Positions 1 through 863 of a stretch of 64,000 bases of DNA are shown here, in pieces. Made by a program: the position numbers and the translations under genes. Positions within the stretch are counted from its first letter, which is position 1, and every line of letters starts with the position of its first letter. The notes beneath the pieces were generated by a model, which was given only the letters and a program-made list of their open reading frames with translations, made no database searches and had not been told where the DNA came from. This DNA is from Bacteroidota bacterium (GTDB taxonomy: Bacteria; Bacteroidota; Bacteroidia; B-17B0; Aurantibacillaceae). The stretch is taken from contig JAJNDK010000002.1 in NCBI GenBank assembly GCA_021156365.1, positions 1 through 64,000 of the forward strand, written 5' to 3'.

Positions 1-44
1 TCCTGGTAACTGAATTTTTTTGGTTCGTCTTTGTTCTCTTCCAT
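1..44 (-). CDS. Possible 5' end of a CDS running off the left edge
   Basis: An ATG on the minus strand at 42-44 opens a frame reading MEENKDEPKKFSYQ that stays open to the window edge (14 codons). The highly charged N-terminus gives no family. If real, it is divergent from the XRE gene at 504, so the 21-bp repeat array would lie in a shared divergent regulatory region. The stretch is too short to prove coding. Confidence 0.3.
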   Translation of the reverse strand, partial: MEENKDEPKKFSYQ

Positions 45-186: not shown

Positions 187-207
187 TATGAGAACACTCC
201 TTTATTA

Positions 208-417
208 TTTTAAGTACTACCGGCTTCCTTTCAAGTTCTCACAACAATTTTTTAATTTCATTCACCCGTTTTTTAATAACTCACGTCAACTTTTTAATTA
301 GGTGCAGTTATGTTTTAGAAACTTACTATTGTGTTTTAGTTACTTTCGATTACGTTTTAGAGACCTTCAACTTCCTTTTAATTGGGAGCTGTTTTCTTTT
401 AATTTTTCGCGCGTTCT
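208..417. repeat. Array of ten 21-bp units, TTTTAR-N7-C-N2-Y-N2-Y-N
   Basis: Ten units begin at 208, 229, 250, 271, 292, 313, 334, 355, 376 and 397, exactly 21 bp apart with no slippage. Six start TTTTAA, three TTTTAG (313, 334, 355) and one TTTCAA (229). Unit position 14 is C in all ten (221, 242, 263 ... 410), position 20 is a pyrimidine in all ten and position 17 in nine. The remaining positions vary freely. A degenerate leading unit may sit at 187 (TATGAG, with C at 200), and an out-of-phase TTTTAA follows at 426. The spacing is two DNA helical turns, so every hexamer faces the same side. The array ends about 85 bp before the XRE start codon. It is non-coding: five of the ten units have a stop in the minus frame that would read Leu-Lys heptads, and TTTTAR itself gives a stop in one plus frame. 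Function unknown; cooperative protein binding is one inference. Confidence 0.93.
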
Positions 418-503
418 CTAAACAATTTTAACCTTCTTTCACGGAACCCGCCGGCTTTTGCACCGTATAAAGAAAATACAATAGTATACTAAACCTTAAT
501 ACC

Positions 504-863
504 ATGCTATCCCTCAATCTTCTGCCCGTACTCAGGGCCCGCGGAGTCGAAAGACCCTTTACCTTCCTTGTTAAGGCAGGATTTCCACCTTACACTGCTC
601 ACAACCTGCTAAGCAGTAAAACCGTCACCTTCCAGCTTCGCAACATCGAAAAGCTTTGCATGGTACTCAACTGCACTCCCGATGAACTGCTCGTGTGGAC
701 CCCAAACAAAAACCAGCTCATTACCGACACGCACCCGCTAACAAAGCTCCGTAACAAAAATCCCGACTACAACTGGCAGGACACCATCAAAACCATTCCA
801 CTCGATCAGCTCCGCGAGCTCGTCAGTATTATCAAAGGAAAGGACAAGCCCACTGATACCTAA
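504..863 (+). CDS. XRE/Cro-C1-type helix-turn-helix regulator
   Basis: This 119-residue protein has an N-terminal HTH of about 65 residues: a first helix (LLPVLRARGVERPFTFL), a turn with AGFPPYTAHNLLSS, then LRNIEKLCMVLNCTPDELL, typical of XRE-like DNA-binding domains. The phrase CTPDELLVWTP is characteristic of short stand-alone HTH proteins I recognise as common in Bacteroidota. The C-terminal part (residues 75-119) is charged, may be helical, and matches nothing I know. No signal peptide or enzymatic domain is present. It stands alone, with the 21-bp array 85 bp upstream and a weak TTTG (457-460) as a possible -33 element. The obvious hypothesis is that it binds the array, autoregulating or controlling the divergent gene. 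Family assignment is fairly secure; target and signal are unknown. Confidence 0.8.
   Translation: MLSLNLLPVLRARGVERPFTFLVKAGFPPYTAHNLLSSKTVTFQLRNIEKLCMVLNCTPDELLVWTPNKNQLITDTHPLTKLRNKNPDYNWQDTIKTIPLDQLRELVSIIKGKDKPTDT

Follow-up and report, generated by a model that had tools for sequence, protein, structure and literature searches.

Direct-repeat centromere/autorepressor systems, such as ParR-parC, TubR-tubC, StbA-stbDR, and omega, join a small DNA-binding protein to phased direct repeats located 5′ of its own gene, and in this they resemble the locus described herein. Their repeats are approximately 7–12 bp in length (20 bp in pSK41), are borne on plasmids, and are often accompanied by an NTPase, and the cooperative filament, autoregulation, and element-specific motifs of these systems would be further points of likeness to the XRE-type regulator of our locus. 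Plasmid iterons are also phased direct repeats, of approximately 21–22 bp, to which the protein encoded next to them binds, and the MraZ boxes and the phage Apl/Cox operators are likewise phased direct repeats placed before the gene of their own small HTH-type or other regulator, which differ from the present array in having 3–7 sites at about 10 bp and a motif constant within the family. Direct repeats of the heptamer TAACTGA have been reported as intergenic sets near start codons in bacteria including some Bacteroidetes (MacGregor, 2015, PMC4679880), and this was the nearest report in the literature searched, in which no class of 21-bp arrays in Bacteroidota was described. The TAACTGA repeats consist of one constant 7-bp motif with neither a short core recurring at a fixed 21-bp interval nor a linked regulator, and the heptamer was absent from the units of the array analyzed here.

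The window, namely the whole 64,000-nucleotide stretch under analysis, begins at the first base of a 677-kb contig, and its relevant features are as follows.

Positions 1–44, minus strand: possible start of a divergent ORF (MEENKDEPKKFSYQ...), with its ATG at 44, cut by the contig end.
Positions 187–207, plus strand: candidate for a decayed unit ahead of the array (TATGAG), in phase, non-matching, with 3 mismatches in the pattern search.
Positions 208–417, plus strand: core array of ten 21-bp units, as seen from the sequence, a shuffle test, and orthologous arrays.
Positions 397–411, plus strand: last clear unit, TTTTAATTTTTCGCG, which may include a promoter −7 region.
Positions 418–503, plus strand: spacer of 86 bp between the array and the start codon, with decayed units at most.
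Positions 504–863, plus strand: XRE regulator gene encoding 119 aa, with HTH_26 at residues 6–65 and C-terminal helices at residues 78–112.

The ten units start at positions 208, 229, 250, 271, 292, 313, 334, 355, 376, and 397, and open with TTTTAA (six units), TTTTAG (three), or TTTCAA (one). Unit position 14 is C and unit position 20 a pyrimidine (C or T) throughout, and the remaining 13 columns are variable. The first-pass annotation had described exactly such an array, including the C, the pyrimidine, and the lack of conservation at the other positions, and direct inspection of the sequence confirmed each of these points. As for the extent of the array, which had been given as 187–446, the portion from 208 to 417 was clear, whereas 187–207 and 418–446 contained decayed units at most; a TTTTAA at position 426, inside the spacer, is out of phase with the array. 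The pattern TTTYAR occurs 12 times within positions 1–503, and ten of these occurrences constitute the in-phase run, whereas the longest in-phase run among 1000 dinucleotide-preserving shuffles of the same segment, with any period of 10–40 bp scored, was only three. The autocorrelation peaked at 21 bp (z ≈ 7), and elsewhere in the 64 kb a z value above 5 was observed in only two overlapping scan windows of 2510, both of which were coding.

The product of the gene at 504 matched the HTH_26 profile (PF13443; E = 6.5e-8, 33.2 bits versus a cut-off of 22), which upheld its earlier assignment as an XRE gene beside the array. No NCBIfam match was obtained for the 119-aa protein, its PHROGs matches were weak and partial, and the family to which it belongs has a protein length of approximately 115 aa. 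An AlphaFold2 model (pLDDT 84) placed the HTH at residues 6–65, strands at residues 2–4 and 63–65, and C-terminal helices at residues 78–82, 91–97, and 100–112. The nearest solved folds identified by sequence profile and fold search were SaPI2 Stl and CylR2, to which the likeness was confined to the HTH (residues 1–68), while the C-terminal part of the XRE protein differed. Two tandem HTH domains (approximately 220 aa) are encoded at L063, L070, L071, and L073, where 21-bp arrays are present too. At another locus, the contig ends beside the cassette as it does in the window, with a divergent ORF start, MKEEKFDFEAFKREA, on the minus strand (L078:1-46), which we take to resemble the N-terminus of an IS256-type transposase.

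The search for homologues of the XRE protein covered 60 relatives, 87 genomes from the family, 395 from the class, and 395 from across the phylum; other genera were found to hold homologues at 53–66% identity, and remote ones were collected besides. For each locus, periods of 10–60 bp were scored over the 700 bp upstream. The top period was 21 bp or its double, 42 bp, in 56/56 XRE-family loci, which were analyzed in two sets of 39 and 17, with z above 5 in 52 of them and the weakest value at L120 (z = 3.6). No downstream 21/42-bp peak exceeded z = 4.5 in any of the 56 loci, the only two stronger peaks on that side (z = 6.1 and 5.2) having periods of 60 and 30 bp, and the same search detected a 21/42-bp array at 0/9 ordinary HTH_26 regulators. 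A partial family match of 64 residues (L047) had no array and was excluded from the 56. The arrays consisted of 8–18 units (mean 10) and ended 7–239 bp before the start codon (median approximately 70 bp), and the gaps between called units were multiples of 21, with a 1-bp shift in L112. The array thus recurs in other genera, ahead of the orthologous XRE genes, as had been anticipated if the association with the regulator was genuine.

Four near-identical copies of the array and gene were found, L076, L110, and L111 in one genus and L077 in another. Their genes are 93–97% identical and differ mostly in third codon positions, and their arrays are 78–88% identical. Among these four TTTTAA-clade copies, 3/60 hexamer positions varied versus 61/150 of the other array positions (Fisher p = 5e-8). 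This far lower variation of the hexamers indicates that each of them is individually maintained under selection, and the distinction between conserved hexamers and variable segments drawn in the first-pass annotation was thus borne out between genomes.

The TTTTAR hexamer, which had been regarded as the defining consensus of the array, is not its defining feature. TTTTAA (e.g., in L076) is limited to the nearest relatives, whereas other subfamilies keep the same 21-bp spacing with unrelated motifs, such as CAATTAA (L058), TTCCAA, CTTTTGTA, GACTTAATTGCTAAATA, TTCGGAAACAG (L072), GTTGG..ATTG, and more. Even within genomes carrying three to five copies, most copies have differing arrays, as in G121 (L056, L064, L065, L066, and L075). 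In the genome of the window, a search of the whole sequence for four in-phase TTTTAR with up to 3 mismatches returned the window array alone above control level, and no trans targets of the array motif were detected there. Array similarity tracked HTH identity in one orientation only (Mantel r = 0.58, 0/2000 permutations), and no link between motif similarity and the recognition-helix residues was detected after correcting for overall identity; because of the latter result, the co-divergence of array and HTH may reflect mere co-inheritance and is not proof of contact. Self-reverse-complement similarity reached p < 0.05 in only 2/56 arrays (mean 0.38 versus a null of 0.36). The units therefore do not form palindromes, which implies a head-to-tail arrangement, and a classical Cro/CI-type palindromic operator was rejected for want of dyad symmetry in the 56 arrays. 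An alternating two-unit (42-bp) organization was not supported as a rule, since even and odd lags matched equally on average; alternating units do occur in L087, L112, and L142.

We favor, at a probability of roughly one half, the reading that the neighboring XRE regulator uses the array as its private operator and binds it cooperatively, head to tail. The array and the XRE gene would constitute one functional cassette, in which each unit would have its short core (TTTTAR here) bound by an XRE monomer or by a single HTH head. With 21 bp equal to two helix turns, the bound molecules would line up head-to-tail on one face of the DNA, and neighboring molecules would contact each other through their C-terminal helices and thereby form a filament cooperatively across some ten sites, at the promoter and upstream of it. 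Such a filament would set the expression of the XRE gene, most likely by autorepression with a sharp threshold, and would bring the divergent neighbor, where present, under the same control. The specificity would diverge along with the protein, so that no cross-talk would arise among the copies in one genome. Of the ideas raised at first, that of operator sites arrayed along one face of the helix fitted best, and the parts of it that we infer are the binding by the XRE protein, its cooperativity, and the autoregulation together with its sign. The anatomy of the array is compatible with a ParR/StbA-like filament, with putative cooperative binding.

The position of the promoter was considered from the same loci. 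The promoter motif TANNTTTG was weakly enriched, occurring in 8/49 loci versus 2.8 expected. In some loci there is no room for a promoter between the array and the ATG, because the array ends 7–17 bp before the latter. Members of the TTTTAA clade have a last unit, TTTTAATTTTT(C/A)GCG, that ends only a few bases 5′ of the ATG, which would require the promoter of these loci to be situated within the array or farther upstream. The 15-mer of the last clear window unit, TTTTAATTTTTCGCG, or else TTTTAATTTTTAGCG, likewise constitutes the last unit of homologous cassettes and ends just 5′ of the ATG.

Arrays with the same spacing were also found at other genes. A divergent gene of family A (approximately 320 aa, comprising a helical N-terminus of approximately 210 aa and a variable C-terminal beta domain) lies across the array from the XRE gene in 12 loci, and strong upstream 21-bp arrays were present in 11/20 family A loci without XRE (L137, L138, L139, L142, L146-L149, L151, L154, and L155), with z values of 8.7–20 and up to approximately 30 units (L148). 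Family D, for which a structure model and fold search indicated a helical N-terminus and an Fn3-like C-terminus, has the sequence signature RIPxxxxxFxxYIxxTxxYL... (L234-L263) and neither a Pfam match nor a recognized DNA-binding domain, and carries a 21/42-bp array upstream in 26/28 loci and downstream in 0/28, versus 28/521 random ORFs of G121. In the latter genome, approximately 25 arrays of 21/42-bp period were found in the 780 kb scanned, at least two of them in coding sequence; their motifs are almost all mutually unrelated and, paralogous loci aside, unlike those of its XRE arrays. On contigs C3 and C4 (L156-L194), this corresponds to one private array of 21/42-bp period every 30 kb or so, and further unnamed families stand beside such arrays, e.g., at C3:147425, C4:337068, C4:4519, and C3:358355. 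Other periods were limited to a handful, several being near-multiples (22/43, 41), and the few arrays with 41-, 43-, and 22-bp periods are likewise near whole helix turns. The genome of the window is array-poor, as judged from the density over 816 kb. Between ordinary genes it has phased arrays whose sequences are unlike that of the TTTTAR array (G000:C16:129466-129871 and G000:C3:190275-190512, both of 42 bp, and G000:C16:65507-65947, of 43 bp), as well as approximately 2 kb of a period-10 repeat (G000:C16:233115-235102).

We tentatively propose that Bacteroidota may well possess an undescribed genome-wide class of helically phased, private-motif 21-bp direct-repeat arrays heading several unrelated accessory gene families, namely HTH_26 regulators, helical+Fn3 proteins, and helical+carboxypeptidase-regulatory-domain proteins. 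In such a class, the spacing rather than the sequence would be the family trait, array and gene would travel together in minimal cassettes, and the array would represent a new addressable DNA element; the class as a whole may be categorically new. Because the same spacing precedes genes without a recognized DNA-binding domain, the neighboring protein need not be the one that reads the array, and the XRE array could instead be one of these genome-wide private arrays, served by a shared or unlinked reader or process for which the XRE gene is one cargo. The upstream-only arrays of family D, the XRE-less family A loci, and the number of arrays with unrelated motifs in G121 all speak for this possibility. 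Dozens of unrelated motifs are, however, beyond one sequence-specific reader, the selection on the hexamer of the XRE clade means that something reads that very sequence, and the linkage to XRE is complete (56/56) rather than partial. We regard such a shared reader as possible but rather unlikely.

The distribution of the four near-identical copies bears on a further reading, in which the array would be a centromere- or integration-like site serving the maintenance or transfer of a small mobile cassette made up of array and gene, in the manner of direct-repeat centromeres to which an autoregulated HTH protein binds. The upstream flanks of L076, L110, L111, and L077 are at chance identity, so that the shared sequence consists of array and gene only. 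Between L076 and L077, the homology runs from the first unit to approximately 11 bp past the stop codon; array and gene are 91% identical between the two genera, and the flanks are unrelated. Ordinary genes flanking L077 are only 73–82% identical within its own genus, which supports horizontal transfer of the cassette, and by these sequence comparisons the array and the gene were shown to be the unit kept and transferred, which speaks for the favored operator reading as well. These near-identical cassettes with sharp borders at unrelated chromosomal sites, together with their patchy distribution (12/87 genomes of the family and 0/2 other genomes of the genus), are what a mobile cassette would be expected to give. 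However, the cassette contains no recognized transposase, integrase, or partition NTPase, no homologue of the XRE protein was found in plasmid, phage, or viral contig collections, and the window copy lies on a 677-kb contig with ordinary genes beside it; a maintenance or transfer site thus appeared improbable. In the empty-site comparison for L077, the flanks were rearranged in the relatives, and a sequence of approximately 65 bp located about 95 bp upstream of its array (L077:4813-4880) is repeated many times over in the genomes of the genus that harbors L077. The array was shifted by about one unit between the homologous loci L057 and L089 (21 bp) and by three units between L056 and L075 (62 bp).

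An RNA-level element, in which the array in the 5′ leader would offer evenly spaced RNA sites for translational control, is very improbable. Arrays do end 7–30 bp before the ATG in several loci, and heptamer repeats just upstream of start codons occur in other bacteria (PMC4679880), but the exact 21-bp phase fits duplex DNA and not RNA, the predicted structure was no better than that of shuffles (z = −0.18 and −0.72), Rfam gave no match above chance, and the HTH of the XRE protein is of the DNA type. The early suggestion of transcribed variable segments fell with the same structure and Rfam results. Equally little credence can be given to a functionless array made by slippage. Tandem repeats are indeed common between the genes of some of these genomes, and copy number does differ by approximately whole units, but such an origin is contradicted by the site-conservation test, in which hexamers were kept while adjacent bases diverged, and sits poorly with a period fixed at 21 bp despite unrelated motifs and with an exclusively upstream linkage to one gene family (56/56).

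Several other candidates were rejected. A coding array specifying a heptad peptide was set aside on finding a fully open frame in only 20/56 arrays, with no preference of frame or strand. A CRISPR array does not agree with a conserved part of 6–8 bp per 21-bp unit, and no cas genes were recognized nearby. Phased bent DNA, another of the original ideas, had to be given up because GC-rich motifs free of T-tracts make up many of the arrays with this spacing; a phased A-tract pattern applies to the window array and not to the class, L072 (TTCGGAAACAG), L040, L069, L138, L148, and L155 being GC-rich. The suggestion of an origin or partition site was not sustained either, with neither a Rep nor an NTPase gene recognized beside the window gene and no plasmid homologue. 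For an iteron-type origin, the ORF list contained no Rep-like neighbor, and the contig is 677 kb long; unlike iterons, the XRE array has no Rep protein or replicon, and its protein is of the HTH_26 type. For a ParR/TubR-type partition site, no adjoining ParM, TubZ, or ParA NTPase was recognized, the neighbor of the XRE gene in the window being a VWA protein.

If the array is indeed the private operator of the XRE regulator, a family of small regulators would have retained a spacing of exactly two helix turns, across some ten sites, despite many changes of motif. It would then offer a natural series of protein–DNA pairs in which changes of specificity could be studied against retained cooperativity, and a supply of orthogonal regulators whose multi-site operators are already built in. 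The broader class of private arrays ahead of unrelated genes, undescribed as far as our searches went, points to a hitherto unrecognized level of gene regulation, or of element maintenance, among Bacteroidota. Compared with the centromere systems, the XRE array is strictly of 21 bp, is chromosomal, accompanies its gene alone, and shows turnover of the motif between copies. Though it has no Rep or NTPase partner and is not plasmid-borne, it probably resembles the direct-repeat autoregulatory arrays in its manner of working.
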